A stretch of 64,000 nucleotides of DNA from Dysidea avara (Eukaryota > Porifera > Demospongiae > Dictyoceratida > Dysideidae). Position numbers and translations under genes: made by a program. The notes under the pieces are model-generated. The model searched no databases. It was not told the DNA's origin and saw only the letters and a list, made by a program, of their open reading frames with translations. Shown here one piece after another: positions 4,046-62,027 of the stretch. The DNA is taken from contig NC_089278.1 in assembly GCF_963678975.1 (NCBI RefSeq), positions 14,427,959 through 14,491,958 on the forward strand. Reading direction: 5' to 3'. Each line of letters opens with the position of its first letter. Within the stretch, counting starts at the first letter, position 1.

Positions 4046-4680
4046 ACCTGAATTTGAAAGCCACAATTTTCAATTAACAACATAATAAAGCCTCGAAGGA
4101 CTACCTGTCCACAGGAGTTTCGGCTATCGAGAACAAAGTCATAAGATCTGCTGATACACCACATAATCAGGGGAATTCTCTGCGTATAAGCTTTTAATAC
4201 ATCTGTTTAGTGTTTTTTTTTTGTTTGTTTTTTATTCAGTGTACATGTGTGTGTGTTGTTTTGTATGTGCTTTTTGTGAAGGGGAGCACGTTTACAGGCT
4301 TAGCCTTTTGTGTACCCTTGTCTTTTGACAAAAATGGATAATCTAATCTAATCTAATCTAATTTAACCAAACACAGTAGTTAGCTTTATTACTCTGTCTC
4401 CATGTCTAGGCTCTCTCTCTCACAGACACACTGTTTAAATATTCAACTTTCTTGTAGATATAGCTAAATTACCAATTATCAAAAAAAAAAAAAAAAAAAA
4501 ACTTACCACCGCTGGTAATACGCAGAATCTAGTTCATTCTAATCTTTTTTCACTTTTACTGACACTTGTACAACTTCTCGGCACGGTGAATGACTTCCTC
4601 GCCTTGTAACATAACCCATAGATTACGGAGATCTGCACGGAATTGGTTTCCGCGATTGTTACAAAGGATTAAGGCGGGAA
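4046..4680 (-). other. Possible unrecognised minus-strand gene fragments (exon-like)
   Basis: Two exon-like pieces are seen on the minus strand. At 4046-4148, a frame following a CAGCAG acceptor ends at a good donor (CAG/GTAACT) and reads SYDFVLDSRNSCGQVV and onward. At about 4560-4660, a frame containing RADLRNLWVMLQGEEV ends at a possible GTAAAAG donor. Nothing shows that they belong together and I do not recognise the protein. A poly(A) run of about 22 lies at 4480-4500. Treat as a hint only. Confidence 0.2.
4190..4365 (+). repeat. LINE 3' tail with TAATC repeats
   Basis: A segment with GGGGAGCACG, GGCTTAGCCTTTTGTGTACC and CTTGTCTTTTGACAAAAATGG runs into a short (TAATC)n tail at 4338-4362. 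This is the usual layout of the 3' untranslated end of CR1/L2-like LINEs: a hairpin-forming segment followed by a short tandem tail. No coding remnant is visible upstream, so it is a heavily 5'-truncated insertion. Confidence 0.55.
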
Positions 4681-6104: not shown

Positions 6105-7260
6105 ATGTACTTAGTTGGATTGAGCTCTGGAAGGATAGTGATTCAAACCCTAGAGTCTGTGCAAAGGAGGTCTGCTAGATTTGTATTCAACGACTACTCA
6201 CCTTATGACAGTGTATCCAACATGCTTACTAATCTTGGCTGGAGTCCTCTTGCTGATAGACAAAATCCAACTCTAAATAGGAAGGTGCTTCCTTTTGTTG
6301 TTTCTGATGATTTTCACACAGATTGACCTTTAAGATAAAGCAAACAAGTGCTAATTTATTATTGGATTGCTTGTATCAGCATAAATTTAACACACAAAAA
6401 CATACAAAAAGTGGTCACGTGACCAAAAATATCACAATAGTTAAATTGGGCAGCTTAGTATAAAATCACTACATTTTAGGATGACTAAAGTCACAATTAG
6501 TGTATTTTCTTGCCTTATAATGAAGACTTTTACATCTTGTAGTGCTAAAGCACATTCTTTATAGCTGTAATGGGATTGTTGGCCACGTGATCACTTTTTG
6601 GGTATTTACAATTAAAACTGCATTGATATTGAAAGTAATAAACAGTTTAATAATATATTAGCACTTGTTTTTTTATATTAAGGTCAGCCTGCATAAAAAT
6701 CATCAGAAACAATGAAAAAGGCTGAGGCATCATCTTATTTTGCAGTGGAAATCCTATATGAAGGGAATTTTGGTCACGTGACCACTTTTTGGATATTTAC
6801 ACATGTTAAAATTGTGCTGATAGTGACTGCTGCAAACATTCCAATAACAAATTAGCACTTGTTTGCTTTATCTTAAAGGTAAATCTGTGTGAAAATCTCC
6901 AGAAACAACAAAATAAAGCACCTTCCTATTTTGAGTGGAAACCCTAATATTATTTACTGTCATAGATTAATAATGCTATTCAAAATAATTCATCACATTG
7001 TAGACATTAACGCTGACGTACGCGTTTTACCCCCACCTAGCCCTTGTATCCACTCTACACGCGGATACTCAAAGAGATTCTTACAGGATTACCAGCAAGA
7101 ACTAATGCCTACTCAAACTCTTCTTCCAAGCAGTATTAAGCTATGGAACTCTTTACCAGATGATGTTGTAATTGTTTCAGACCTCAATCATTTCAACTTT
7201 TGTGAGATTCTGCCTAGATCCTACTTATTATGCTGTAGACATATTCTTTGCCTTTACTAG
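6105..7260 (+). pseudogene. LINE reverse-transcriptase C-terminal fragment, split by an insertion
   Basis: Two blocks of one LINE ORF are recognisable. Block 1 (about 6130-6262) has LESVQRRSARFVFNDYS and LGWSPLADRQ. Block 2 (about 6945-7230) has HRLIMLFKIIHHIVDI, the HSTRGYSKRF region and SSIKLWNSLPDDVV. This is the conserved C-terminal tail of jockey/CR1-type non-LTR retrotransposon ORF2, after the RT domain: an arginine-rich segment, then a charged segment, then the WNSLP motif. The inserted inverted-repeat element at about 6267-6943 separates the blocks. No RT core remains, so the copy is 5'-truncated and dead. Confidence 0.75.
6267..6943. mobile_element. Inverted-repeat element inserted in a LINE ORF
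   Basis: The ends form a long imperfect inverted repeat of about 90 bp. The left has AAATAGGAAGGTGCTT and later TAAGATAAAGCAAACAAGTG. The right has the reverse complement of both. Inside, a unit of roughly 190 bp, carrying GGTCACGTGACC and a GTGGAAACCC-like end, occurs once inverted (left) and twice direct (right, ending near 6770 and 6943). It has no ORF of its own. The insertion point is clear because the LINE protein resumes on the far side. Outer limits are good to a few bases. Confidence 0.65.
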
Positions 7261-7448: not shown

Positions 7449-8395
7449 CTAATCCACTATGCCAATATCAGTATAGTTGTAATCCCATCCATAGTCTTCC
7501 CCTGTGATTTCATAAAGTTCTTTATTGTAAGGTTCATAGAACTTCATCAGAACATCTGCAGTTCTTCTGGTAATCTTGGGATGAGGTCTACCTTTACTTT
7601 TGATACTAGGACAATTGACATTGTTATCTTCCACAAAACAAAAGAGTTTTCTCTCCTTATTATATACAAAATTACTTGAAGAAATATTTGATGGCAGTCC
7701 TAAACACTTTTCCAATCTATTCATCAATAGTACAGGGTCGGTCCTCAGCATGTCTCCATTAACAAAACAAATTTGATTAGAAGGTACAAACTCCAAACAT
7801 TGCTTAATGTAGTAGGAGTATCTGCTTTTTTTGATTGGTCTATACCCAACGTTAGCTTGACCTGTGGAATCCATAGCCAGTTTATCAAACGGTTTCGTTG
7901 AACGACGTTGCAAGTACTCTGATATTGCATGTACAATTGGATGTCGAACTATTATAATGAATTTCAGGTCATTTAATTTCAAATTAAATTGTTCAAGAGA
8001 TTTGATTAGTCGTGGGAAAACTATTCTAGGAGCCAGTACATAACCCGGACTGTCCTCCAATACAACTTGTGATGGTCCAGGAGTCTCCACCTTGTTAATG
8101 TACCAACACAATCCTCTAGCATAGTTCAAATCAAAGAATCTTAGTTCACATCTACACCCCTTAATGCTAGGATGCATCAATAAAGATGACCTAAGTGCTG
8201 AAGTTCCAGATTTTGCAAAACCAAGTATTATTATATGAGGATATCTACTTTTTTGTGCACTAGTTGAATCAAATTTATCAATAGCACAACTTGACGATGA
8301 CTTGCTGTCCAGATTTGATTGATCCTGATATACATAATATGTGTTTATGTAGTGATACAGGAAATCAAAGATGAGCAATGCTGTCAATGCTATAC
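7449..8395 (-). CDS. Heparan sulfate glucosamine 3-O-sulfotransferase-like enzyme, long last exon
   Basis: Likely a Golgi type II membrane sulfotransferase that moves sulfate from PAPS to a glycan. The exon opens with a hydrophobic segment (about IALTALLIFDFLYHYI), read as the membrane anchor. The 5'-phosphosulfate loop is present as GFAKSGTSALRSSLL, and a Glu (CELRFFD) sits where the HS3ST catalytic Glu lies. The 3'-phosphate motif is IVRHPIVHAISEY, with the Arg and Ser kept. The C-terminal KGRPHPKI and EDYGWDYNY match the HS3ST tail pattern (KGRTHP, GxDFGW). The exon begins after a CAG acceptor at 8396-8398. The frame stays open to an ATG at 8459, but that part overlaps a foldback element, so an upstream exon supplying the true start is more likely; I cannot see it. 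Two decayed relatives lie on + at 1-221 and 1346-2301. The exact acceptor sugar is unknown. Confidence 0.82.
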
Positions 8396-8448
8396 CTGAA
8401 CATGGAACAGTTATGTAAAGAAAAATACACACCCACATGTATACATGA

Positions 8449-9902
8449 AACACTTTCACACCTCAGATCAAAGGAACCGCCCGGGCTACATTTCGTATGT
8501 AGCCCAGCTAGCCGGGCTACATACGAAATGTAGCCGGGCTACAACTAGGCAGTGATTATATAGACGTTGAGGCCGAAATTGATTGTGGGGATCGATTAAT
8601 ACTCACGTGATTAGGATGGACGACTTGGATTTCGCCATGAAAACCACTCAGATAGAGAGTGTTTTGTTATCCTCGCCATTCTACAAGTTGAAAAACATTG
8701 GACTAAAGTAAGAACTAGTGCTATAGCTTACTCACTGATCATTTCCACACATTTTTGAATATGGACACACCCCCATCATGAAACTTCCACTCTGCATGGA
8801 GTAACCACTCTACAAGCAAGCTTACCTATCTAGGCCTTTAGTGAACTCTATACTTTCCCCATAAATGATTCAATAGCACTGATTAAAACATTAAACGCGT
8901 GTAACCAAAATTCTCTATGATATCTCTACGATATGTCCATTCATTGTAACCAAAGCGTACTAGCTGCTGACCCATAATCGAAAATTTTAGGTATGCATAT
9001 ATAATACATCCATTGGCTGCACTTGTATTGGCTTGGGTGATTAAACGCCCTGTACAGGCTATCAGCCTATTAAGTGTTACATATTAGCTGTAACACAGGG
9101 CATTCGGGCTTTGTATGCCCTTGGGTCTGCCGCCCTCAGGCAGTTGGGCATACATATCAAGCAAAGCCCGAATGCCCGTGTTACAAGTAATAGTTGTAAC
9201 ACGGGCATGAGGGCATACATATCAGGCAAAGCCCGAATGCCCCATGTTACAGCTAATATGTAACACTTATTAGGCTGATAGCCTGTACAGGGGGATCAAT
9301 CACCCAATCCAATACGAGTGCAGCCACTGGATGTATTATATATCCATACCTACAATTTTCGATTATGGGTCAGCAGCTAGTATGTTCTGGTTACGTTCGG
9401 TTATGATAAACGGACATATCCTAGAGATATCACGGAGAATTTCTGTTATGCTAGTTTAATGTTTTAATCAGTGTTATTGAATCGTTTATGGGAAAACTAT
9501 GCAGTTCACTAAAGGCCTAGACAGGTAAGCTTGCTTGTAGAGTGGTTAACCCGTGCAGAGTGGTAGCTTCATGATGGGTGTGTGTCAGTATTCGAAAACG
9601 TGTGGAAACAATCGAATGAATAAGCTATAGCACTAGTTTTCACCTTAGCCCAACGTTTTTCAACTCGTAGGATGGCGAGGATAACAAAACGCTCTCCGTC
9701 TATGTGGTTTTCATGGCGAAATCCAAGTTGTGCAGCCTAATCACGTGAGTATTATTCGATCCCCCCAACTGATTTCGGCATCAACGTCTATATAATCAGT
9801 GCCCAGTTGTAGCCCAGCTACATTTCGTATGCAGCCCGGCTAGCTGGGCTATATATGAAATGTAGCCTGGGCGGTTCCTTTGATCTGAGGTGTGAAAGTG
9901 TT
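8449..9902. mobile_element. 1.45 kb foldback (snap-back) element
   Basis: The whole segment is one long imperfect palindrome. AACACTTTCACACCTCAG at the left is matched inverted at 9902. The arms then agree for about 600 bp, through GTAGCCCGGCTAC-type motifs, TAATCACGTGAGTATTA and the AGGCTATCAGCC region. The centre (about 9050-9300) is a nested hairpin of CATTCGGGC and GGGCATACATATCA-type repeats. The arms differ at scattered sites, so the hairpin is old. No coding frame. It sits next to the acceptor of the sulfotransferase exon, probably inside its intron. Confidence 0.82.
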
Positions 9903-10023
9903 ACATACATACATGCAGCATACATACGTATGTACGTACGTACCTACATACAAAAAAGTGTATATTTGGTAGTCACTCCCGCCTGCATGACCCAACTTAA
10001 CCCTGGTTTCCACAAGCAGCATT

Positions 10024-12229: not shown

Positions 12230-13260
12230 TTATTCTTATTATCTAGGACCAACCAAGTACATACACCAACGTGACAGCTCTCTGGTGAGGCTATTAGGTG
12301 GTGAAGGCACAATCCCCAAATCAACTCAATATGTCACAGTAGTGACAGATACAACGCAATAGTGGCATCGTAACTAAAGGCCACCAGTAGCTAAGTGCCA
12401 GTACATCATTGGTGTGGTAATGGCACAGTGATGTGTACACAGTATATGTAATTATGTATACAAAACACACAGGAGAGAACTATACATTATAGCAGTATTG
12501 TATGCAGCAATACATTATAGGCAACATCAACAGATAAAAAATTATTAGCCAATATACAGTATATTGGCTAATAATTACAGAATTAAATAAGGTTCATCAG
12601 TGGTGTAGCAATGGCACAGTGACGGGTGACACACTATAATTATGCATACACAACTTGCAGGAGATAGCTACACAATACTGTAGGAGTATGCAAGCCAGAT
12701 GAACCAGATAAAGGAAGACAGCCAAGCCAACCAGAACCTAGTAGCTAAGCCAGGTGAAGGCAAAAAGATTAAGCATGTATTGAATTGCCTGACACCAACA
12801 CAAAGGAAGCTCGCCATGCCAGCTGCACAAAACAAGATTGTTTACTTGTATTTTATATTGTAAAGAGCATGGCATGTGTTTTAATGTTTTCTTATATTCC
12901 GGTTAATTAATTACATATTTTATGTGACTGGCAGCTGGCATGGAGACTTGAGACGTTACAAACATAAAAACTTACTTGTAATCTTCTTGCTTACGTGTAA
13001 AGTAGCCTCTCGCTCTCCTGAAGTCACTTCACGGACATTCGCTAATCTTCTCCTTCGTGCAATCTGTAATCATAGATATTAAATATCTATGCTGTAATTA
13101 AGCAAGGGTGTGGTACTGGGTGTTATATAGAATTACACGTATGGTCCAAGTCATCAGCATGAACAGGCGTAACGATTATATGTTTGTGCCTTCGTTCACA
13201 GGCGAATCGATCCCCTGTTAGTTTATGTCTCTAGGCCTAGTAGTTTTCTCAAACTTTAAT
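12230..13260. repeat. Dispersed repeat family R, older copy
   Basis: Shares blocks with the copies at 13280-14145 and 20341-21255. These include the ACCAAGTACATACACCAACG block, repeated CACAGTGA/ATTATGCATAC segments, GCAAGGGTGTGGTACTGGGT, and a terminal block with TCATGCTGATG-type sequence and TCTCTAGGCCTAG. A near-perfect short palindrome centred at about 12553 (ATTAGCCAATATAC and its complement) is unique to this copy. Non-coding. Confidence 0.55.
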
Positions 13261-13279
13261 TATTTATTCATTATTATTT

Positions 13280-16715: not shown

Positions 16716-17538
16716 AGCGACTGGACAGCTTCTTTATTGGTGTGTAGCTAACCACTGAAATAAGTCATAACTGGGACCAATCAATTATATGTTTATCCAC
16801 TCCATAGTCTGGAATGTAAGGCTTCCGTACAGGTCTCCTGGCCTAATCATACGACTGGGAATTGAACGTGGCCTGGTGGTGTCCGATAGTTGCGGACACT
16901 TGCAGTACAGTAAGGAATAGATTAAGTTCCGTTTCCACGACTATAAGGCCACGGGTAGCTCAAAATCAGTCACTAAACAGACACTGTCACACTGATAAAT
17001 CACCAGCGTCCAATGTGTCACTACCACAAATTCGCCGAAACATGGTTCTTGCAAACTCTTCAAACTTTTGTTACTATTCTGGGAGATTCATCCTGAAGTG
17101 AGGTTAGCCACAAACAGATAAGCTACAGGCACACCTGCTCGCCATCTCGTCCTTAGTAACCGCATGGTGACGCAAACCGAAACACGGATGTTTTAGTGCG
17201 CGAGTTCCGTTTCCAATCCCTATGTGTATAGTATATCTATGATTAAACAAGGGTGTGGTGCCAAGCGTTATATAGAATTACCTCCAGGTATAGTCAAATT
17301 CCAAAATTGGATGCTTTTTGACCTCACATTTTCATCCAAATATGGATGATGCTTCACTAAATCATCCATTTTGGATGATTATTACTCATCTCTCTTATAG
17401 TTACATAAGCAAACATCATCCAAAAGTGGATGATTATTGCTTGATTCTCTATATAGTGAGTGCTTATGTAAGCAAATATCATCCAAAAGTGGATGATATT
17501 TGCTTGATTCACTATATAGTGAGAGATGTATGCAAGAA

Positions 17539-18136
17539 GCATCCAAAATCGGATGTTTCTAACCATCCAATATTGGAATGTAAACTTAGCCTTCCAAAAT
17601 CGGATGTTTCTAACCATCCAATATTGGAATGTAAACTTTGCCTTCCAAAATCGGATGTTTCTTGCCATCCAATATTGGAATGTAATTTCTGTCGTCCAAA
17701 ATTGGATGTTTCTTGCCATCCAATATTGGAATGTAACTTCAGCCTTCCAAAATTGGATGTTTCTTGCCATCCAATATTGGAATGCAATTTCTGTCGTCCA
17801 AAATCGGATGTTTCTTGCCATCCTATATTGGAATGTAATTTCTGTCGTCCAAAATTGGATGTTTCTTGCCATCCTATATTGGAATGTAATTTCTGCCTTC
17901 CAAAATTGGATGTTTCTTGCCATCCAATATTGGAATGTAATTTCTGTCGTCCAAAATTGGATGTTTCTTGCAATCCAATATTGGAATGTAACTTCCGCCT
18001 TCCAAAATCGCATGGTTTTTGCCATCCAATATTGAAATATAAGTTTTGCTTTCCAAAAATGGATGTTTCTTACTATCCATTATTGGAATGTAAGTTTTGC
18101 TTTCCAAAATTAGATGGTTCTTGCCATCCAATATAG
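17539..18136. repeat. Left array, about 11-12 units of 51 bp
   Basis: Each unit carries two palindromes, CCAATATTGG and CCAAAATTGG (or CCAAAATCGG), set in ATGTTTCTTGCCAT and AATTTCTGTCGT-type spacers. Since 51 is 17 codons, several frames stay open on both strands. Those frames show only the period and are not genes. Longer variants (17318-17540) contain ATCATCCAAAAGTGGATGAT and CACTATATAGTG palindromes. Confidence 0.92.
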
Positions 18137-19517
18137 ACTATTTCCGAAATGACGTCTTGCAAACTCTATTTAGGGGACTCTTACGTTTTCGAGTACAGCT
18201 TCCCACGAAGAATACTTCTAAGGACCTATCATGCGACTTCTAGAGATAATTTCGAAATGAAATCACCAGGTATTGTTAAAGAAATGCTAATTTACCTCTA
18301 CTCGGAAAAACAGGCGAAAAATTTAAACCCGAGTAAAAAAAATTGTGTTATTGCCTTATAGCTGTACCTGTTAGTTTTAGCTCGATATCTTCTTCCTGTA
18401 GTACACTAACAAGTCGACCTCCATTTACGGCCCATAGAAACAGTACTCAAAAACATTGGAGTCCCCCAAATAGAGGTTATTGAAACCTCAATTATTTTAA
18501 GTGAGATTGGTAGCATACAGCTGCAGATGATCAGTTTCTGTGGAATTTTCAGTATGTGTAGGGATCACAATAATAAAAGCACTGAAACAAGAAGATAGCA
18601 ACACAGTGCCACTGAGTGCATTCTACTTCAAAATGGCCCAAAAAGCATCCTATGAGTTTCTCCAACTTTTTGGATTAGAAATTTTTCACCATGAGTAGGG
18701 ATCACAATAATGAAACAAGAAGATACTGGTAGTAGCACAATGCCACTGAGTGCATACATTTTAGTTCCCATTATAGCCACACACACATGTACACAAAATA
18801 TGGGCGGAATCGTGCTTAACTTTAGTCATACAATGCTGCTGAATCTATTTATTTTAATGCTTTACAGCACTTAACAAGTGCTGAAGGTCTGTAAGACACC
18901 TGGCTCCACAGCCTGGTTAAAGATGTTTTGAAAAAGTACAGAAAGGTGAAAAAGTCCATGATTAGGCCTAGACAGGCAATCAAGATGTCTTTCTCCCTGC
19001 TAATTTCATGTATTTACATTCAGAAGAGTGACTTACTATCTTTTAGAACTACATAATGGAATGACGCAATGAGTTTGCAAGTCTGTTTTTGATGCGTATT
19101 TTTGGCAAGAATCATGAACCTTGACAATCACTGCCATGAACCTACCGCACTTAATAAACCTACATGAAAAAAGACAATTTTGTGTTTCATATCAAGCTGT
19201 TTCTTGCATTAACAAACAATAGAAAGCAACGAAAACAGCAAAATTACTATCCATGACCCTACCACACTTAATGATATTGCTTCTTATTCTACTAGTAGAA
19301 TATAAACACTTGAGAAATGGTTTTGTGGTGACAAAAACTAAAACGCTCCTCTAAGGAAGGTGTCGATACAGAAAATTAGTGCATGAATATGGTTTCCTTG
19401 CTTGAAGAAGACAACCATGTGATTGAAGAGGAGAAGAGAAGCAAAGTGCAGAAGGTGGATATTCTTTGTAACCAGAAAAGGCACATGCTACCGGTGAGCT
19501 AACTGTTGTGAAATAAA
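18137..19517. other. Central region of the foldback element
   Basis: About 1.4 kb between the arms. A 70-aa open frame on + at 18149-18361 (starts MTSCKLYLGDSYVF) is unrecognised and has no domain I can name. A block with GGGATCACAATAAT, GAAACAAGAAGATA and TGCCACTGAGTGCAT occurs twice in direct order (about 18560-18635 and 18695-18765). No transposase signature. Confidence 0.5.
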
Positions 19518-19915
19518 ATGTATTCCATTATTGGATGGCAAGAAACATCCAAATTTGGATGGCAAGGAATGTATTCCAATATTGGATGGCAAGAAACATC
19601 CAAATTTGGATGGCAACAAATGTATTCCAATATTGGATGGCAAGAAACATCCAAATTTGGATGGCAACAAATGTATTCCAATATTGGATGGCAAGAAACA
19701 TCCAAATTCGGATGACCAGAAATGTATTCCAATATTGGATGGCAAGAAACATCCGAATTTGGATGACCAGAAATGTATTCCAATATTGGATGGCTAGAAA
19801 CATCCAAATTTGGATGGCGACAAATGTATTCCAATATTGGAGGGCAAGAAACATCCAAATTTGGATAGCGACAAATGTATTCCAATATTGGATGGCAAGA
19901 AACATCCAAATTTGG
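19518..19915. repeat. Right array, about 8 units of 51 bp, inverted to the left array
   Basis: The unit reads as the reverse complement of the left array: TTCCAATATTGGATGGCAAG then AAACATCCAAATTTGGATGG. The period is exactly 51 over several units. Divergent units continue to about 20045. The right arm is shorter than the left, so unit number has changed since the arms were made. Confidence 0.92.
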
Positions 19916-20080
19916 ATGATTGTTGCATAAATCTCTCACTATATAGAGATATGAGCAATAATCATCCACTTTTGGATGATTTTGTTCCTTTGCAATAATC
20001 ATCCAATTGTGGATGAAAATGTGAGGTCAATAAACATCCAAAAATGGAAACGAACCATACCTCCGAGGCAGGAGAATTAC

Positions 20081-20340: not shown

Positions 20341-21255
20341 GTTAAGTTAGCTATATTGAAAGTAACTATATATTGTAGGTGTGACGTGTCTCTGAAGATG
20401 ACTCAGCAGTGAAGTGAGGCTATGCAGAACAAGGGATGTGGTGAAGGCACAATTAGCAATTGATCCCAATCAAGCCAATATGGCACAACAGACTCTGTTG
20501 TAACTAGAGGCCACTGGTGATGTGCCAGTTAATCAGTGGTGTGGCATTGGCACAGTGATCACAGTCTATAATTATAATATTATGCATACAGCCATGCACA
20601 ACATACAGGAGATAGTTACACATTGTTGTATATGCAGTACTGCATCGGCTTCTCATTTAGCTATTACAGACTCACAGTAGAGTAGTACTTAAGCTGAGTG
20701 GAAAATAATTCCAGCTGCTAGCAAGCCAGATGAAGGATGAAGATGTATAATACAACTACCAGTACAAGTATTACATTACTCATTACCTTGTTGTTCCAGC
20801 TGGTTGTTTACCAGTGCATCAGCTGGTATCCCAAATGGTCATCAGCTGGTAGTTCACTGCATGACACCTGGATCACATATCCTTCATACAAAATACACAG
20901 TTACAAACATTTAAACATACTTGTAATGTTGTTGTTTACATGTAAGGTGGCCTCTGGCTCTGCTGTAGTCACTTCACCGACGTTTACTAATCTTCTCCTT
21001 CGAGAAATCTGTAATTAAACAAGGGTGTGGTGCTGGGTGTTATATAGAATTACACATACAGTAAAGTCATCAGCACGAACAGGCGTACTTATTACACGGT
21101 TGTGCCTTCATTCACAGGCGAATCTATCCCCACTTAGTTCATGTCTCTAGGCCTCGTACTTTTCTCAAACATTATTTATTTATTTATTTATTTCATTCAT
21201 TATTAATGACGTAATTTTAACCGTATTTTGTATTATTCTTAGTACTTGGTTGTAT
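20341..21255. repeat. Repeat family R, copy B (uninterrupted)
   Basis: The intact sister of copy A. It preserves, in about 40 bases at 21010-21050, the empty sites of the three insertions in copy A: CTGTAATTAAAC, the single TTAA, and TAGAATTACACATAC. Copies A and B lie head to tail, so they look like a tandem duplication that predates the insertions. Confidence 0.75.
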
Positions 21256-22567: not shown

Positions 22568-22844
22568 ACTAGATGAATAAAAAAATTGGAAATTTTAAAA
22601 TAGGAATAGGGATCGCTGAAAAAAGCCACAAAACAAGAAGGGATCGCTGGGGTGGTAATGTAAACCACAAATCCCTATTTTGACTTACCTCAAAATGACA
22701 GAGCATGTAAGAAAAGATTTATGACAGAGTCAAAACAGGGATTTGTGGTTTACATTACCACCCCAGCGATCCCTTCTTGTTTTGTGGCTTTTTTCAGCGA
22801 TCCCTATTCCTATTTTAAAATTTCCAATTTTTTATTCATCTAGT
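22568..22844. mobile_element. 277-bp hairpin MITE, copy 1
   Basis: A near-perfect palindrome. ACTAGATGAATAAAA and GGATCGCTGAAAAAAGCC on the left are repeated inverted on the right, ending TTTTATTCATCTAGT. Only about 60 bp in the middle is unpaired. It gives the empty site for the insertion in copy 2 (23486-24013). Confidence 0.88.
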
Positions 22845-32301: not shown

Positions 32302-33251
32302 TAGAGCAGTTTCAAAACCATGGTAACCAAAAATTACGTAATGGACCACACCCAAATCGCCATGTTTTTGTACCAGATTGCTAGATGTTGCAAGTTGAAT
32401 TCCTCGCTAAATCCATGCCAAGACTTATTAATACGTGAGTAAAATAGATGCCAGTGATAGAATAAAATGTGCAGGTGAGTTATTAGGCATTAAAAGATAC
32501 GTACTGCCTCCCAACAGGGCAGTTTCGAAGGAAAGAGAAATGCGTAAAAATGGATTTGGCCAAATTACGACCTATTCACCGCCCAAAGGTGGTTAAAACT
32601 AGGGGAAAACTTACAGTATACGTCTTTACCCAGCACCACAGCAGCGTACAGCCACATCCAGCTATCCCAGGATTAGCCAGAGCTCCTGAAAGGCACGAGA
32701 CCGGTAATGGCGTACTACCAAACTGTGATAAAACGCCAGAAAAAGAAGACTCTTAGTGGTGAATTTTGCTAGAGTTAAGTTTTATTGTCGAAATCAACCA
32801 TCAGTTAAACTTTAGCGGTCTTATTTTGCTGTCTGCTTTTTCACACGAAGTGGGAATCCCAGCACATGAGCGATTCTGGCTAACTCGGGGATAGCTCGAT
32901 GTGGCTGTACGATGCTGTGGTGCTGGATAAAGACCTATACTGCAGGTTTCCCCTAGTTTTAACCACCTTTGGGCGGTGAATAGGTCGCAATTTGGCCAAA
33001 TCCATCTTTACGCATTTCTCCTTCCTACGAAACTGCCCTCTTGGGAGGCAGTACGGATCTTTTAATGCGTAATAACTCACCTACATACTTTATTCTATCA
33101 CTGGCATCTCTTTTCCTTACGTATTAATAATCTTGGCATGAATTTAGCGAGGAATTCAACTTGCAACATGAAACAGTCTGGTACAAAAACATGGCGATTT
33201 GGGTGTGTCCATTGCGTAATTTTTGGTTACCATGGTTTTGAAACTGCTCTA
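32302..33251. mobile_element. 950-bp foldback element carrying a coding-like segment in both arms
   Basis: Inverted ends TAGAGCAGTTTCAAAACC. The arms agree for about 430 bp, with a 70-100 bp middle. Each arm encodes, reading inward, a frame with KCVKMDLAKLRPIHRPKVV. On the left (+) it starts near 32550, on the right (-) it is read from about 33006, and both are open. On the minus arm the frame reaches back through ALKDPYCLPRGQFRRKE. The segment may be a captured piece of a host exon. I do not recognise it. Confidence 0.75.
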
Positions 33252-33560: not shown

Positions 33561-34004
33561 GTCTCGCGTAGCCAGGCCCTTTTCTTTCTTTTGTGTAAGG
33601 GCGGGGAAAGAAAAGGGCCTGGTGAACATGGTATAGCATCGTCGTTGGCCTATCCTGAGATTGTGGGGATTCAACTGCGCAGCTTCCGGATTGTTTGTGG
33701 GTGCGAATGACGTGTGTTGTTAACCGTTGCGTCATTTGCGTCCTGTTGCCATAGATATAAAGCGTGATCAGCATCATTTGCGTTCTATTACCATAGCTAC
33801 TGCTTTTATATCTATGGCAACGGGATGCAAACGGTGTAATAGTTAGCAAATCACGGCATTCGCACCCACAAACAATCCGGAAGCTGCGCAGTAGAATCCC
33901 CACAATCTCGGGATAGGCCAACGACGATGCTATACTATGTTCACCAGACCCTTTTCTTTCCCGCCCCCACAAAAAAGAAAGAAAAGGGTCTGGCTACGCG
34001 AGAC
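33561..34004. mobile_element. 444-bp foldback MITE with GTCTCGCGTAGCC ends
   Basis: Near-perfect palindrome flanked by TA (33559-33560, 34005-34006). Ends GTCTCGCGTAGCCAGGCCC and complement. Inner arms TTCCGGATTGTTTGTGGGTG and GTTGGCCTATCC also repeat inverted. An end of the same family lies at 4749. Confidence 0.88.
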
Positions 34005-48410: not shown

Positions 48411-48659
48411 TGAGACGGATGCGGGAGTGTCTCCAAATACCGGTCGTCTCAGCTACCAGGTTCTCTTGCTGGAATGTTTGACGAAAGCCACTTGACTTCT
48501 ATCACCATGCACCACGAGGCGGGAAAGATTCCATATAACGCACACACACACACAGCTCACGTGTACAACCGCAATTGAAAATACCTATAGCCTAACCTAG
48601 TACAATAAGATAAAACATAAACTTGCTATATAAGAGTCAGTCAGTCTTCATTCTCGACA
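48411..48659 (-). repeat. BEL element 3' LTR
   Basis: 249 bp, TG...CA ends. Differs from the other LTR only at 48502 (T, versus A at 54513). The pol frame ends 19 bp inside this LTR (stop at 48641-48643). Confidence 0.95.
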
Positions 48660-50941
48660 TCCTCCGGGCGGCGGCGTAGTATTTCAGTCCATTCACTTAA
48701 CTGCCTCCTTGCTCTTAAGGCTGCTCCCCTGGGATGTCTGTGAGAGATCTGGTTATTCTGTTGTGCTGGCAGCTCAGGTTCTTGCTCAAGTGTTTCCACG
48801 TCTGTTGGAGAATGTGTCACTTCCAAGGGATATAGACGTGCAATTGGACGATTAGTGCGTCCACTTGTCGTGCGCAATGTCACTGATCTGATAAATCCAT
48901 CCTTCCCCTTCACAACTTCTTCAACCACTCCAAGTCTCCACTGGTTTCTAGGACAATCATCATGTATTTGCACCACATCGCCTGTCTTGACTGTTTGTTC
49001 TGTGGTGCCTGTTGTGCGGTGCACTTCTCGTAACGAAGTCAGATATTCCTTCTTCCATCGTGATTGAAAGTGCTGTAATAGCAGGCCTTGTCGGTCTATC
49101 TTACTTCTCAACTGGTCTGCAGAGTGGTAATCAGGGTCAGATATCTCTTCATCTGTAACATTTGGATGTGGTAGAGGAACAATTCGGCGCCCACACAACA
49201 AATGAGAGGGTGTTAATGGCTCAAGGTCTCCAGTGGCAGATGAGAGGTGTGTTAGAGGTCGATCATTGAGCACTGCTTCGACTTCAACAATGGTGGTTTG
49301 GAGGACAGTGAGTGTGATAAAGGCACGGCCTAAGGTCTTCTTCAGAGACATCTTCACCATTCCAACCAGCCTCTCCCAAAAGCCCCCATACCAGGGAGCT
49401 CTCTTGGGAATGAATTGCCATGTTGTGCCCTTGTGCATAAGAGCAGACTTCAGTGTAGGTGACTGGAACAATTCATGTAACTCCTTTGCTGCTGATGTAT
49501 AAGTTGAAGCATTGTCTGATAAGATCAGACGGGGCAATGACCTGCGGGCAGCAAACCTTCGGAAAGCCTGTAGAAAGGTTTCTTCTGTAAGGTCAGTTAC
49601 AACTTCAAGGTGCACAGCCCGGGTACTAGCGCAGGTGAACAAGCACACATACACCTTATACTCACCGACCATTCCTTCCCTCTTCACGTACATCGCTCCC
49701 GTAAAATCAACTCCAGTCACACTGAAGGGAGGGCCATCTTGTACTCTGGCCTGTGGCAGCGGTGGTGGATCAGGGACAGGGAATGGTTTTCCAGCAACTC
49801 TACGACAGATCACACACTTCCGAAGCAACCTCGCCACTACTCTCCGTGCTGCAGGAATCCAGAAACGTTGCCTCAGAGCAGTCACTGTAGTATCTGTGCC
49901 CCCATGTAGTTGAGTGGCATGAGTAGCATACACAATCAAGGCGGTTAGTCTGTGATTGGGGGGGAGAAGATAGGGGAACTTGGTATTGTGGTGAACTGGA
50001 GCATTATGTATCCTCCCACCACAACGGAGGAAATTGTCAGAGTCTAAAAACAACCTGAGCTGTCTGACAAGTGGGAGACGTCTACTGGATGTCCGTCCCC
50101 TGTGTAAAGAGTGGATTTCCTTCAGGTAAGTTGAATGTTGGCAGCTTTGGATCCACACATTCTGGGCATTACTTATTGCACTGGCAGTGATCGGTCCTAC
50201 AGGCTTGGATCCATGTGATTTGATACACTCAATAAATCGCAACACGTATGCAGTGATGTACAACAGTTTAGACAGAGTACCATACCTCTCTATGTCAATG
50301 ACGGCTGCCACAGTAGGGTGCTGATCGCCTTTGGTTGTTTCTTCAACTGGGTCCGGTGATTGCAACTCAGCATCTGTAACAGTAAGTTGAACATTTAGTA
50401 TGTCAGTAGCACTCCATGTTGGCCTTAATTCTTCATGAACAATCCACTCTGGTCCATGTGTCCACATAGTTGAGGCTTGTAAAGCTGAGAACGAAATGCC
50501 TCTAGTTAACAAGTCCGCAGGATTGTCTGCAGATGGACAGTAACCCCACCATTGGACAGGGCAAGCTTTAGTGATTGCTGACACACGATTGGAAACAAAC
50601 TGCTTCAGTTTCTTATCACTGTTGAGCCAATGAAGTACGATTTGGCTGTCACACCACATATGGACTGAGTTGATCCTGTGATGAATTGACGAACTGATCC
50701 AAGTAAACATCTGAGCTGCAGTAGTGGCACCCATCAGTTCTAGTCTAGGAAGTGTGAGTTGTTTCAGGGGGGCCACTCTGGATTTCGAGATCACAAATGA
50801 TGTTTCACTGCCTTGACAAAAGTATGCCACTGCTCCATAAGCCTTAGTGCTTGCGTCACAGAATACGTGTAGTTCAATTGGAGCATCTGTACTTAATCCA
50901 TCCTTAAAGTAACACCTAGGAAAGGAGATTGCGTGTAGTTG
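48641..50941 (-). CDS. BEL/Pao pol, 3' part: RNase H, integrase, C-terminal domain
   Basis: The frame continues directly from the upstream ORF after the TGA; the first ATG in it is at 50828-50830. RNase H region: IELHVFCDASTKAYGAVAYF, LPRLELMGA, MWCDSQIVLHWL and NPADLLTRG. Zinc-binding H2C2 region: HGGTDTTVTALRQRFW to CVICRR. The integrase core has the DDE residues in VTGVDFTGAM, LILSDNAST and WYGGFWERLVGMVK. The C-terminal domain, with RWKKEYLTSLREVH, GDVVQIHDD and RNQWRLGVVEEV, matches the domain that ends BEL/Pao polyproteins. All motifs are intact. The stop lies in the 3' LTR. Without read-through or reversion, this part would lack translation from the upstream start. Confidence 0.9.
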   Translation of the reverse strand, partial: QLHAISFPRCYFKDGLSTDAPIELHVFCDASTKAYGAVAYFCQGSETSFVISKSRVAPLKQLTLPRLELMGATTAAQMFTWISSSIHHRINSVHMWCDSQIVLHWLNSDKKLKQFVSNRVSAITKACPVQWWGYCPSADNPADLLTRGISFSALQASTMWTHGPEWIVHEELRPTWSATDILNVQLTVTDAELQSPDPVEETTKGDQHPTVAAVIDIERYGTLSKLLYITAYVLRFIECIKSHGSKPVGPITASAISNAQNVWIQSCQHSTYLKEIHSLHRGRTSSRRLPLVRQLRLFLDSDNFLRCGGRIHNAPVHHNTKFPYLLPPNHRLTALIVYATHATQLHGGTDTTVTALRQRFWIPAARRVVARLLRKCVICRRVAGKPFPVPDPPPLPQARVQDGPPFSVTGVDFTGAMYVKREGMVGEYKVYVCLFTCASTRAVHLEVVTDLTEETFLQAFRRFAARRSLPRLILSDNASTYTSAAKELHELFQSPTLKSALMHKGTTWQFIPKRAPWYGGFWERLVGMVKMSLKKTLGRAFITLTVLQTTIVEVEAVLNDRPLTHLSSATGDLEPLTPSHLLCGRRIVPLPHPNVTDEEISDPDYHSADQLRSKIDRQGLLLQHFQSRWKKEYLTSLREVHRTTGTTEQTVKTGDVVQIHDDCPRNQWRLGVVEEVVKGKDGFIRSVTLRTTSGRTNRPIARLYPLEVTHSPTDVETLEQEPELPAQQNNQISHRHPRGAALRARRQLSEWTEILRRRPEDVENED

Positions 50942-53900
50942 TCAGAGATCATCTAGAAGGGTCTGCCATTGTTGTTGGCTCTCTGCCGGGAGTGGACTGT
51001 CCCATGATAACTTGTTCTGCCATAGTTGTTGTTGCAGTAATTTGGCACTAATCATAACTGGGGACGCAAAACCCAATGGGTCAAAAATCATGGAGGATTG
51101 CTGCAACACTTTGCGCTTTGTGGCTGGAGAATTGTCAAGTGGTAAGGCCTTCTGAGAGAGTGACAAATTGTCATTGGCAGTGTCCCACACAAGTCCAAGT
51201 GTGTTTATCTGTTTGCCACTATCCATAACTTGATCCTTCTCTGCTGCAGTAGTCAATTGTACACTGTTAGATGCCCAGCTTCTTAAATTAAAGTTGGCGT
51301 CAGATAGTGCCTTTCTGGCCTCAGTGTAGTACACAATGGACTCTTCTTCAGTAGAACACCCTGACAGAATATTGTCCACATACAGATTCTGAAGAAGATC
51401 CTTGGATGTTGTCGAACTACAATGTGTGAGATGACAATGAAGGGCAGCATACAGCATAAATGGCGAGCTGGCCGATCCAAACAGGACAACTTTGAATCGG
51501 TATGTTTGAAGTGGGCTATTGGGATCATCAGGACAGCAGGGCCAGAGAAAACGAGTGTAGTCACGGTCCTTGGCGTGCAACTGAACATGTAGGAATGCCT
51601 TTTCAATGTCAGCGCTAATACCAAACTTGTGGCAACGGAATCGGATGAGGATAGCTGGTAGTTCTTGTAGAAAGGGAGGCCCAGTTTCTAGACAGTCATT
51701 GAGACTTGCCAAATGCTTGGCTTCACGGCTGCTGCAGTCATACACAATCCTGAGCGGTGTTGTTGCTGAATCCTTGTGCACACCGTGATGTGGTATGTAA
51801 TGGCATGGCTTGACTAATTCTGAGATTGGTACCTGCTCAATGAATCCACGTCTCAGTTGTTCCTCTATTATGCTGTGGTAAACTTTAAGCATGCCAGTAG
51901 TGTTGCTTAGTTTACGAGTAAGGAACCTCACACGTCGTTCACAAGTGGACTTGTTTGTAGGTAGCACGGGGTGGCTGGATTTCCATGGAAAGCTCACAAT
52001 GTATGTGCCATCACTCTGCCGACTTACTGAGTTGTGAAGGTACTCCTGTAGGAAGTCAAATGATTCCTTACTCAGCCCAAAGTGTGTGCTTTCTACTGGG
52101 GTGATACCACTTGAGTCGAACAGTGATGCTGAACTAAGATGAAATACACTGGATGCTATAGAGCTGGTGTAGTTGTATAGTGGTCCTGAAAGTAAGTACC
52201 CAATCTTAGTCTGAACAGCAGTAGGACCTGGTCCTCGAACTATGGCTTCTTGCACAATGGACCAGTAAGCATCGGCTCCTATAAGCATTGAGATGTTGAT
52301 TGCATCACTGTCTGAGATTGCATGGTTAAGGTGTAGTCCCTTCAAATATGGCAGTTGCTTAATATAGGAAAAGGGAAGGTTACGGAGTGGCTGAGCGATT
52401 CTTGAAGTGACAAGAACATTGATAGGAATCTGAATGCCTTCTGTAGTTTCTAGGTAGATTGTGGCAACAGGAAGAGTCTGGTTGGAAACCTCTGATGCTC
52501 CAAATGCAGCAATTGCAACTGATTCTCTTCTTTGAACATTAAGGTGCAGAGAGTTGGCGAGAGTTTGTGTGATAAATGAGCGTTGTGCTCCCTCGTCTAG
52601 TAATATGTTTGCTTGTGCAGAAAAGTTGTTAGCTCTCACTGTAGCAACAGCTGTCTTCAGAAAGCATACCTTGGTTGGCTGAGGATGTGATATCGTGGAA
52701 TTTATCAAATTCTGTGCAGTTTGAGTTGGGGGAGTAGATTGCTGTTCTGAAGTTGGTCTCTGTGTGTTAGGAGGATTCTGTTGGTGATGTGTCCCTCGAC
52801 ACAAGCTGGTATGATGTCGCTCCTTGCAGTGTTTGCAGCGGCCCTTCGACTGACATTGACCAACTCTGTGGTGACCAAGGCAATTAAAACAAAGCTTATC
52901 ACGCTTGACAATGTCCATGCGTTTAGACTGGTCTGGGATAGTGTCACACTGTGTAGCTGGGTGTGGTCCCTTGCAAAATACACACTTAAGCTTCCTAGGT
53001 TCAGGTTTGCTCATGGCTCCTGTGTGAAATGAAGCTGTGGAGTGGTGTTCGTCTGACTGAGATGGAGAAACTAGGGCACCAGCTTCAAGGACTCTTATCT
53101 CTGTGGCAATTGATTTCCTTAGCTTGTCAAGGGTCCACTCTAGGCTGCTGTGCTCTCTGGCCAGGTTTTTTCTCACATCAGCAGGAAGTCTCCCTAGTAC
53201 CATAGGAACTAACAGGGCCCCATAACTCGTTGTTGATTGACCCAAGGCTGACAGACCACGCACATGATTTTCAATGGCATCATGGAAGGCCCTCAAACCA
53301 GTTATGTTGTGACTAGCACGTGGCAAGTTCATCAGTGAATGCATATGGGCATTAATGATTCTCTGTTGATCACCAAACCTGTCCTTCAACAGATCTAAGG
53401 ATTGCTGGTAATTAACACTGGTCAAGGGAAAGCCAGCAATTGCCCTTGCAGCTTCACCTTCAAGGTGTGCCCTCAGATAGTTCAGTTTCTGAACATTAGT
53501 CAACACATTGTTGGAGTGCACAGCAGAATCAAAGGAGTCCCAAAATGTCTGCCACTTCAATGGGTCGCCTCCAAATGTGGGTAATGTTAGCTTGGGGAGG
53601 CGGCTGACATTCTGGGACATACCAGCAAAGGTGTTAACATACCCCTGAGCCTGAGCGAGATTTGCTCCTTCGTTGGATTCAGTTCGCTGCTGTTGTTGAG
53701 GGGTGTCAGTCACAGATGCATCTTCATTTGATGGTTGAACAATGGCTGAATGACTTGCTGATTGATCACTAACTGTATGGCTTGATGGCTGATCACTGAT
53801 AGTGTGATTTGATGGCTGATCACTGACGGTGTGATTGGATGGTCGGTCACTAACCGAATGACTTGACAATTGATCACTGATTGAGTTACTGGATGGTGGG

Positions 53901-54259
53901 ATCATGACACTCTGCGGTTGAAAGGGTAGAGCTTGAATATTGAGTGGCTTTGGTCTGGCCAACACTGCTTTGACTAATGTAATTTTCTCAGCCACATTGA
54001 ATATTATTCCCTCGGAGTCCAAAATTTCTGATTCAAGTGCTTCTGGATCCTCAATTGTAGCAACAATTTTTGTGTCAAGTTCCGCAATGGTACATTTCTT
54101 GGCTTCGAGTTGCTCTAACGATGTTTGAAGGGTGGCAGTGTTTCTCTCATCAGGAGCATCGTTGCTCTCCAGAATGGCGTCAATCTTCCCAAAAACTCGA
54201 GTGAGGTGAGCGCGATGAGCTCTTCGTGACGCTCGGAGGTGTGAAACTTCCATCGTCAT
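50942..54259 (-). CDS. BEL/Pao gag-protease-RT, 1105 codons
   Basis: Residues 1-110 are charged and helical. About 125-175 is a run of 9-residue repeats (NHTVSDQPS type). About 215-370 is the gag-like domain (LPKLTLPTFGGDPLKWQTFW). Zinc knuckles follow at about 426-480 (CVFCKGPHPATQC, CFNCLGHHRVGQC, CKHCKERHHTSLC). An aspartic-protease-like segment is at about 550 (ILLDEGAQRSF; the Asp is kept, and Glu-Gly replaces the usual Ser/Thr-Gly). The RT spans about 740-1000, with ISADIEKAFLHVQL near 885 and YVDNILSG near 963. YVDN instead of YVDD is, from memory, found in part of the BEL group. The frame ends at TGA 50942-50944, right after the RT/connection region (QQQWQTLLDDL). The start ATG at 54259 is the first in frame after the LTR. 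Confidence 0.92.
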   Translation of the reverse strand: MTMEVSHLRASRRAHRAHLTRVFGKIDAILESNDAPDERNTATLQTSLEQLEAKKCTIAELDTKIVATIEDPEALESEILDSEGIIFNVAEKITLVKAVLARPKPLNIQALPFQPQSVMIPPSSNSISDQLSSHSVSDRPSNHTVSDQPSNHTISDQPSSHTVSDQSASHSAIVQPSNEDASVTDTPQQQQRTESNEGANLAQAQGYVNTFAGMSQNVSRLPKLTLPTFGGDPLKWQTFWDSFDSAVHSNNVLTNVQKLNYLRAHLEGEAARAIAGFPLTSVNYQQSLDLLKDRFGDQQRIINAHMHSLMNLPRASHNITGLRAFHDAIENHVRGLSALGQSTTSYGALLVPMVLGRLPADVRKNLAREHSSLEWTLDKLRKSIATEIRVLEAGALVSPSQSDEHHSTASFHTGAMSKPEPRKLKCVFCKGPHPATQCDTIPDQSKRMDIVKRDKLCFNCLGHHRVGQCQSKGRCKHCKERHHTSLCRGTHHQQNPPNTQRPTSEQQSTPPTQTAQNLINSTISHPQPTKVCFLKTAVATVRANNFSAQANILLDEGAQRSFITQTLANSLHLNVQRRESVAIAAFGASEVSNQTLPVATIYLETTEGIQIPINVLVTSRIAQPLRNLPFSYIKQLPYLKGLHLNHAISDSDAINISMLIGADAYWSIVQEAIVRGPGPTAVQTKIGYLLSGPLYNYTSSIASSVFHLSSASLFDSSGITPVESTHFGLSKESFDFLQEYLHNSVSRQSDGTYIVSFPWKSSHPVLPTNKSTCERRVRFLTRKLSNTTGMLKVYHSIIEEQLRRGFIEQVPISELVKPCHYIPHHGVHKDSATTPLRIVYDCSSREAKHLASLNDCLETGPPFLQELPAILIRFRCHKFGISADIEKAFLHVQLHAKDRDYTRFLWPCCPDDPNSPLQTYRFKVVLFGSASSPFMLYAALHCHLTHCSSTTSKDLLQNLYVDNILSGCSTEEESIVYYTEARKALSDANFNLRSWASNSVQLTTAAEKDQVMDSGKQINTLGLVWDTANDNLSLSQKALPLDNSPATKRKVLQQSSMIFDPLGFASPVMISAKLLQQQLWQNKLSWDSPLPAESQQQWQTLLDDL

Positions 54260-54401
54260 AATTTGCTTTCGGTAACTGAAATAAAACCAACAAGAACAGA
54301 ATCAAGATAATGAGTCGCTTGCCTTACTGGGTACCGTTCTCCTTTGCCACGGTACCACGACTTTTAAGCGGCGGGTTAGAAAGTGTAAGGCTAACGACTT
54401 G

Positions 54402-60416: not shown

Positions 60417-60650
60417 AGTCCCTTGCAGTTTCATACATGTATTTTTTCAATATAGCCAAAATATTTTTGCATGGAGTACAAGTAAACACACAATTTGTTG
60501 TCAAAATGTGTACACTTTTAATGTTGCAATCATTGTGAGTATATGAAAGTGTTATAAAGATGATTGCTATATAATAACTGTTTTTTCTTATTTAGACAAA
60601 CAAGCTCTACAAGGAGATGTGTTACTGCATCTCAGCAGGACAGTTTAAGT

Positions 60651-62022
60651 ATGGCGGAGAATGTTGAAGCCAGTGGAAACAGAATAGCTAAACAGCAGCA
60701 ACAGCAGCCTTGTGATAAGTACAACGTAGTACTGTGGATTATGGTCATTCAGGGTCTTGGAAGTATACTACCATTCAACATGTTTAGTCATGCATATGAT
60801 TATTTCAGTGACAAGTTTAATGGAACAGATGTTTCTTACAGTGACAGTTTTGAAAGCTACTTTTCTATCACTGCGATGGTCCCAGTTTTACTGGGATCAG
60901 GCTTTGCTGTATGGCTACAAGCAAGAATAGCGATCAAGTTTCGTTACATTGTTTCTACTACAATGATTATAATCCTTTTAGCTGTGACTGCTTTATTTGT
61001 TAAGGTGCCCACTGAGAACTGGGTGAGAGGTTTCTTCATTTTCACTTTAATAACACTATTTGTGCTTAACTGTTTTGCGTCTGTGTACCAAAGCAGCATA
61101 CTTGGTCTGGCTGGCATATTAGGAAGACGCTATGTTAGTGCTGTGATGAGCGGGCAATCAGTGGCTGGCTTATTCTCTACAATTGCAGCAATCATATCAG
61201 CAGCAATTGATCCAATTACTTCTGGCCGTTGTAAAACTGACAATGCTGAAAACATTGCTCTTGGTTATTTTCTTTCTGCAGTCATTATCATGACAGTGTG
61301 CCTCGTCACTTTCCTGATACAAATGAGAATGGGATTCACTCAGTATTACCTGCAGATCTACAGCACAGCAAATCAGAAACCTGTTTCAACATCACAAGAA
61401 GCATCTAGGACTGAGAAAACACCACTAATTGTAAAGCGGAATAATGAGTCTGAAAGGTTCGAAGGTTTGCTAAGTGTTATCAATCAAATATGGTTCTACG
61501 CTATCAGTGTCTTTATGATATTTGCTGTTACCCTAAGTGTATTCCCTGCAGTATTGACAAACATTCGTAGTGTCAGTTATCAGAAGAAAAATCCAGAAGA
61601 TCATCCTTGGAGTGATTGCCTGTTTGTACCCCTAACATGTTTCCTTGTATTCAACACTGGTGATTTGGTAGGACGAATTATTCCCCAGTGGATAATCTGG
61701 CCCAGGAACAAATATGCCATTCTTGTACTAGCACTGTGTAGGAGTGCATTTATCCCTCTATTTCTGATGTGTTATCACAAGGATGCCAATAAAGATGATG
61801 TTATATTTAGAAGTGACATTTTCCCAGTGGCATTCAATGCTGTATTGTCAGTTAGCAATGGATACCTAGCTACCTTGTGTATGGTGTTGGCCCCAAGAGC
61901 TGTGAACAGCAGGAGCGCTGAAAGTGCTTCAGCAATCATGACCTTCTTCCTCAGCAGTGGACTAACAGTCGGAGCTTTTCTGTCTTTCGTCATGTTAACA
62001 ATTAATGGAGTGGATGTCATGG

Positions 62023-62027
<5 letters not shown>
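60651..62027 (+). CDS. Equilibrative nucleoside transporter (SLC29 family), 458 aa
   Basis: Predicted multi-pass carrier for nucleosides by facilitated diffusion at the plasma or an inner membrane. About 11 hydrophobic segments are visible. Family marks are ILPFNMFSHAYDYF in TM1, RRYVSAVMSGQSVAGLFSTI in TM5, the large loop with TEKTPLIVK, FLVFNTGDLVGRIIPQW in TM8, and SNGYLATLCMVLAPRAV near TM10. I chose ATG 60651 (MAENVEASGN): it gives 458 aa, the usual ENT1/ENT2 size. The frame is open further up to 60564, but that ATG lies before a splice acceptor (TTTTTTCTTATTTAG, ending 60595). The whole coding region is one exon. A (TG)n run follows the stop immediately. Confidence 0.92.

Follow-up and report, generated by a model that had tools for sequence, protein, structure and literature searches.

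Palindrome-array arms in a foldback transposon of the sponge Dysidea avara, and its larger relatives with a probably KDZ-related transposase gene and an NRF1-like gene

The DNA analysed here is a 64-kb stretch of the Dysidea avara genome (contig NC_089278.1, positions 14,427,959 to 14,491,958; hereafter the window, in whose own numbering positions are given), which contains at 17282-20072 a DNA-transposon insertion of the foldback type. Its long inverted ends consist of tandem subrepeats with a length of 51 bp, 11.6 on the left and 7.9 on the right, which face opposite ways. The insertion is flanked by an exact 8-bp duplication, AGAATTAC, that occurs once in each of two empty paralogues of the host repeat (about 21007-21181 and 13083-13265 by alignment), and the BLAST alignments that join at the empty sites overlap by exactly 8 bp. 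Both the foldback architecture and the true insertion had been recognised in a preliminary description of this DNA and are borne out. The span given there, 17282-20072, holds for the insertion and is too wide for the transposon itself, since the termini shared across genomic copies place the family ends at 17285 and 20063, leaving 3 and 9 extra bases. The parts of the insertion are listed below, with reference to two related genomic copies of about 10 kb, one of which is Lauto1.

17274..17281, plus strand: left 8-bp target duplication AGAATTAC, an exact repeat, single in the two empty paralogous sites
17282..17284, no strand assigned: three extra bases, CTC, between duplication and family end, outside the part common to most copies
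17285..20063, plus strand: the transposon proper, 2779 bp, CAGGTATAGT...ACCATACCTC, delimited from 25 two-ended genomic copies, that of the window included
17285..17541, plus strand: left subterminal part, with spaced TCCA-N4-TGGA at 17300, 17335, 17419 and 17482
17446..17459, plus strand: second palindrome type, first left copy, TCTCTATATAGTGA; the same motif stands in the 10-kb copies
17509..17522, plus strand: second palindrome type, second left copy, TCACTATATAGTGA, also in the 10-kb copies
17542..18134, plus strand: left array of 11.6 units of 51 bp, each with two palindromes (24/27-bp spacing)
18135..19515, no strand assigned: middle, about 1.4 kb, without palindrome core or recognised gene
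19516..19520, no strand assigned: deletion junction relative to the 10-kb copy Lauto1, a 5-base overlap with about 7.1 kb missing; it lies at the repeat-array edge and its exact place is alignment-dependent
19516..19918, minus strand: right array, 7.9 x 51 bp, inverted
19919..20063, minus strand: right subterminal part, with spaced TCCA-N4-TGGA at 19965, 20002 and 20037
19936..19949, minus strand: second palindrome type in the right arm, TCACTATATAGAGA
20064..20072, no strand assigned: nine extra bases, CGAGGCAGG, between family end and duplication, outside the part common to most copies
20073..20080, plus strand: right 8-bp target duplication AGAATTAC, an exact repeat, single in the two empty paralogous sites

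The arms are built around a conserved core, TCCA-N4-TGGA, which recurs at alternating spacings of 24 and 27 bp. It also stands in the subterminal parts, outside the arrays, but nowhere in the middle. The window holds 36 exact copies of TCCANNNNTGGA, and all but one are in the element (35); in 100 shuffles the average count was 1.25 and the highest 6. With up to one mismatch the core is found 45 times in the element, 21 times in the rest of the window and 0 times in the middle. A second palindrome, around CTATATAG, has two copies in the left subterminal part and one in the right. At a period of 51, matches amount to 89% in the left array and 94% in the right. The earlier claim of a 51-bp unit with two self-complementary cores stands as regards the two palindromes per unit; uniform arms, in contrast, were not found: mean identity among the whole units (11 left, 7 right) is 0.87 within the left array, 0.93 within the right and 0.79 between them, and the left-array units at the inner edge are decayed. 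That each arm has been homogenised on its own points to exchange within an arm as a further way in which array length evolves. As single-stranded DNA, a left-type unit is predicted to fold at -9.8 kcal/mol (z -4.5; none of 200 shuffles folds as well) and a right-type unit at -8.4 kcal/mol (z -2.9; 2 of 200), and in the predicted fold the two palindromes of a unit pair with each other.

The 550.8-Mb assembly (108 contigs) was searched for further copies by scoring the best 40 of 1856 candidates, with 149 matches listed, and all copy counts are lower bounds. Twenty-five two-ended copies, including that of the window and the two 10-kb copies, were examined (L027, for which one end was found, was omitted). 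The genome-wide search for full-length copies that had been proposed yielded arrays with the same termini throughout, the ends being common to the copies save for the diverged L028 and one base in a 10-kb copy. An 8-bp duplication stands directly at the ends in ten copies and, if the final C of the right end is shared, in four more; three others, the window copy among them, have an 8-9 bp duplication plus extra bases, and in one copy, located inside a microsatellite, the duplication is ambiguous. A satellite without termini was rejected for this family, as the arrays have the same termini in 25 copies, 14 of them with 8-bp duplications and three more with duplications of 8-9 bp. Copies L002-L007, elsewhere in the genome, differ from the window copy by 1-3 substitutions over 2779 bp, to which L007 adds 8 gap positions. 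The other short copies measure 1.70-3.87 kb and vary in internal deletions and unit number, and the diverged copy measures 801 bp; the number of palindrome sites per copy is 37-63 (up to one mismatch, with L028 set apart). The near-identical copies suggest that the family has recently been active in the sponge.

Some irregularities were seen at the ends. The tail of the right end, ACCTC, precedes the left end in four of the 25 copies (window, L015, L019 and the first 10-kb copy), which looks as if ends had been joined; the loci noted for this include L009/L010. Within the nine extra bases of the window copy are GAGG and CAGG, with which the two ends begin. Four-base repeats, GCAT, GATA and GTAT, stand exactly at the ends of L007, L014 and L018, respectively, each of which is without an 8-bp duplication.

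The two 10-kb copies, at C14:12066343-12076244 and C14:3966795-3976789, measure 9900 and 9993 bp between their ends and share 99.84% identity over the 7 kb for which they were compared. In the alignment to Lauto1, the first of them, family positions 1-2236 correspond to 1-2236 and positions 2232-2778 to 9353-9899. About 7.1 kb is missing from the interior, and the window copy is a non-autonomous internal-deletion derivative of a 9.9-10.0 kb element. Its left arm and middle match one end of that element collinearly, the middle lying past the point where the transposase frame encoded there ends. In agreement with the earlier remark on an unrecognised 70-aa frame in the middle, the ten short frames scanned gave no credible Pfam match; the window as a whole had no Rfam match at gathering thresholds. 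The middle also holds a 318-bp stretch (18161-18478) with 42-bp inverted ends (81%), near whose ends no direct repeat of at least 6 bp was found.

A search for a related autonomous copy with a P/Galileo or hAT transposase had been proposed. The 10-kb elements do carry a transposase gene, but a P/Galileo or hAT type found no support. The transposase is encoded by a 789-aa frame, unbroken in one 10-kb copy and split in the other. For this protein, the transposase of what we call family A, neither NCBIfam (E up to 1) nor a PDB sequence search (E up to 10) gave a match. Among eight aligned relatives, three match KDZ (PF18758; best E 5.6e-5, 23.4 bits, cut-off 26.6) and three match CxC4, a KDZ-associated cysteine cluster (best 0.0079, 16.5 bits, cut-off 26.9). 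YDN-C, DRFH and NSQ-NEQ are invariant in the alignment and would fit an enzyme of the D-D-E type. A resemblance of the transposase to HMGXB3 is also conceivable. On these grounds we treat the transposase as probably related to KDZ and not as a confirmed member. Kinship with P/Galileo found no support (no THAP or P match in Pfam for either 10-kb gene or the eight aligned members), nor did kinship with hAT (no match for family A at E up to 10 or for the eight members at E up to 1; the 8-bp duplication is the only feature shared) or with Mutator/MULE (no Pfam MULE match for the family A transposase or the eight members). Since the family A transposase matched nothing at all, its missing P, hAT and MULE matches are weak when taken alone.

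A second gene lies on the strand opposite the transposase and comprises two exons, separated by a 49-nt intron that begins with GT and finishes with AG; this join was chosen among four stop-free ones because it preserves the alignment to NRF1. The joined exons match PF10491, the DNA-binding and dimerisation domain of NRF1, at E 1.1e-7 (32.2 bits vs a cut-off of 23.5), the first exon alone at E 2.2e-4 (21.5 bits), and the protein matches the NRF1 structure PDB 8k4l at E 2e-6. Human NRF1 is described as binding a palindrome as a homodimer, with R206, N242 and R244 reading bases (PMC10810270). As read from the alignment, the corresponding residues are K, S and T in family A and K, N and T in two related lineages, family B and L043; in the related locus L039 the first base-contact position is C and the other two are not covered by the alignment. 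The sponge's own NRF1 gene (L060, G000 C7:9718391-9719029), the only strong PF10491 match, apparently retains R, N and R. A whole-genome PF10491 scan gave seven matches from 11 scored candidates, namely this host gene (318 bits) and six others, all of which belong to family B, exceed the cut-off and lie about 1.5 kb or less from this transposase; the scan, made exon by exon, missed the family A gene and is thus not exhaustive.

Searching the genome with the transposase (best 57 of 142 candidates scored, 62 matches) led to 25 loci, of which three are family A and 22 are other loci, 39-52% identical. TCCA-N4-TGGA is present at 8-21 exact sites in each of 11 of these 22 loci and GCCA-N4-TGGC at 2-10 sites in each of nine, and two (L051 and L053) have neither palindrome; the simulated expectation is at most 0.2 sites per locus (40 simulated sequences per locus). 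Nine TCCA loci also have one GCCA match within the transposase match, which was not counted as an array. The 11 TCCA loci are not independent, since many of them belong to one family and are nearly identical. In the tree, the TCCA loci form three lineages (A, B and L043) and are split from all others with a support of 0.987, and the GCCA loci fall into four groups (L047/L049; L054; L045/L046/L050/L052; L039/L055), on whose side the site-less loci also lie. Flanks of 1.5 kb were examined for an NRF1-like gene, which adjoins 9 of the 11 TCCA loci; seven of the genes near non-A loci were found by tblastn, and three C8 loci were added from the domain scan.

Family B is a 6.5-kb element with inverted arms at both ends and a unit spacing of 24+37 bp. 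Its transposase is about 49% identical to that of family A, and TCCA-N4-TGGA is retained; one end carries GAGGTATG as in family A, and the second palindrome is present in its arm as CCTATATAGTGA. Two copies were compared at both flanks, one of which has a 9-bp duplication and the other none of at least 7 bp. At L039, an array of GCCA-N4-TGGC with a 25-bp period lies at about 4265-4576, in a locus that also has a diverged NRF1-like gene.

From these sequence comparisons we consider it fairly probable that the arrays of this young, non-autonomous foldback transposon serve as dense binding sites for a dimer that the family itself encodes, the NRF1-like protein being the likeliest candidate. In the mechanism proposed here, the window copy derives by internal deletion from the 9.9-10.0 kb element, which encodes both a probably KDZ-related transposase and an NRF1-type, putatively dimeric DNA-binding protein; the window copy would be mobilised in trans. 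The sites would be palindromes with a CCA-N4-TGG core and a lineage-specific outer base, and the arms would be long because each is an array of such sites. Bound along both ends, the dimer would assist the transposase in recognising and pairing them, upon which cut-and-paste movement would follow and create the 8-bp target duplications. A switch of the outer base with CCA-N4-TGG kept is the trace that would be expected of protein-DNA co-evolution, and Galileo may be regarded as a tested precedent for binding sites in the repeats of terminal inverted repeats (TIRs; PMC3688188). The clustered binding sites suggested in the preliminary description find indirect support in the conservation of the palindromes across lineages; the transposase, which it had named as their possible user, becomes a competing candidate.

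Several observations weigh against this proposal. No duplication was found in seven of the 25 copies (L004, L007, L014, L018, L019, L028 and the first 10-kb copy), and the 10-kb copy with the unbroken 789-aa frame is the one that has no target duplication; the other 10-kb copy has one. In Pfam nothing matches the family A transposase at E up to 10, and what its relatives match, KDZ and CxC4, stays below the curated cut-offs throughout. Just 10 of the 22 non-A loci showed an NRF1-like gene nearby, with L039 (39% identity) the only one among the nine GCCA loci, and within the same 1.5-kb flanks none was seen at the TCCA loci L044 and L048. The fact that the GCCA loci are mostly without a visible NRF1-like gene argues against the NRF1-like protein always being the binder, and the transposase itself could do the binding.

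The palindromes might, accordingly, be bound by the transposase's own DNA-binding part, for example its cysteine cluster, with the NRF1-like protein being a passenger or a regulator of transcription. The site type does track the transposase tree, 8 of the 9 GCCA and 2 of the 11 TCCA loci are without an NRF1-like gene in their flanks, and in Galileo it is the THAP domain of the transposase that binds the TIR repeats (PMC3688188). However, symmetric sites with a free 4-bp centre fit a dimeric binder such as NRF1, and the non-host NRF1-domain matches all stand beside this transposase (6/6); we hold this alternative to be rather unlikely. We see still less reason to regard the arms as selfish or neutral tandem arrays that began as a chance duplication and expanded through slippage and unequal exchange, the palindrome symmetry being without function. 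Separate homogenisation of the arms, decay of the units at the left inner edge and the varying site number among copies would all be expected of such arrays, but TCCA-N4-TGGA is kept in family B despite the 24+37 bp period and a transposase of about 49% identity, the same geometry with one base changed recurs in other lineages, and identical sites stand singly outside the arrays, so that a purely neutral origin seems improbable to us. An action of the arrays mainly after transcription, as a source of long double-stranded RNA that attracts silencing, is very improbable: the arms can indeed pair (the longest ungapped arm pair among those listed covers 474 nt at 81% complementarity), but such pairing needs no conservation of palindromes inside each short unit.

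Extending the proposal of an element-encoded dimer, a wider history is conceivable, which we put forward tentatively and with less than even confidence. The sponge KDZ-related clade may have carried an NRF1-type domain since before its families diverged, homodimer and arrays having co-evolved since then, and animal NRF1 might share this origin by capture or domestication, in either direction. In our judgement, the reason why foldback ends are long and repetitive is still mostly a matter of conjecture. Because ends and genes occur together here with several lineages whose site is unchanged or altered in one base, the binding-site explanation is open to direct testing, and the NRF1-like gene may help to trace where a domain used by a major animal transcription factor came from, or how a transposon captured it.

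Taken singly, foldback ends, KDZ enzymes and 8-bp duplications are already known features. Duplications of 8 bp are reported for Zisupton (PMC12730594), and the sponge family has them too (14 of 25 at the ends, three more of 8-9 bp with extra bases). A resemblance to KDZ/Zisupton elements is also suggested by the matches of the transposase's relatives to PF18758 and CxC4, all of which are below cut-off. Nematode Zisupton copies are described with inverted ends and no detected duplication (PMC9297572). In fungal KDZ elements the extra gene described is a TET/JBP dioxygenase, and the word NRF1 is absent from the main text of that source (PMC12730594); unlike these elements, the family described here ends in foldback arms built of palindrome arrays, and its second gene is NRF1-like. 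Galileo, a foldback element of the P superfamily in Drosophila, has long TIRs whose tandem repeats hold extra sites for the THAP domain of its transposase (PMC3688188). The long TIRs with tandem repeats are a likeness, whereas the sponge family has no THAP or P match, and its sites are far more numerous, palindromic and regularly spaced. Muta1, one of the animal MULEs with foldback TIRs, shows 8-9 bp duplications, a long TIR with subterminal tandem repeats and non-autonomous copies with varied interiors (PMC5225508), but its unit is 12 bp long, in contrast to the 51-61 bp unit with two palindromes found here, where there is also no MULE match. Tm1 of Meloidogyne (PMC3169594) and Tetris of Drosophila virilis (PMC4079207) are likewise described as foldback elements with tandemly repetitive TIRs and 8-10 bp duplications, and are similar to the sponge family in these respects; the transposase of Tm1 is of the different Phantom/Mutator type, and for Tetris none was found. 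The second gene shares PF10491 with NRF1, erect wing and P3A2; as aligned, the residues of families A and B at the base-contacting positions differ from those of human NRF1, in family B at the first and third. In En/Spm, TNPA is a second element-encoded protein that acts on clustered subterminal motifs, and the dimer proposed here would work alike. No paper uniting KDZ, foldback arms and the NRF1 domain was found in a search that included no joint query of all three and had most subscription journals outside its reach.

Related arrays were also looked for in public data. The 51-bp period is divisible by 3, and at least four reading frames accordingly stay open through the left array; an open frame of the right array was used only as a proxy query for related arrays. 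Forty-three predicted proteins from public contigs (9 + 41 found, 7 shared) are translations of related arrays, and 41 of them contain at least two motifs. Of 149 intervals between motifs, 59 measure 8 codons (24 bp) and 32 measure 9 codons (27 bp), with further peaks at 20, 12 and 17 codons, and 29 of the 43 translations fit one of the hand-made peptide patterns for the second palindrome. Coding arrays were rejected, since the open frames follow from the 51-bp period. The central codon of the motif is variable with the palindrome edges fixed, which fits a constraint on the DNA. These counts are not independent evidence, the edges being fixed by the definition of the motif and the set having been selected by similarity to the query. 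Scans of viral contig and prokaryote genome collections found nothing.

The rest of the window contains several features of its own. At 8436-9915 lies a large inverted repeat whose arms pair in three successive stretches of 299, 218 and 168 nt (85-92%) and enclose a loop of 113 nt; its ends are unlike those of the foldback family, and it has no clear duplication. Further long inverted repeats, perhaps MITE-like, are found at 32347-33207, 33578-33988, 22580-22833 and 6270-6936. A BEL/Pao retrotransposon with two adjoining frames occupies 48641-54301, a sulfotransferase-like frame lies at 7449-8462, and an equilibrative nucleoside transporter gene at 60564-62027.

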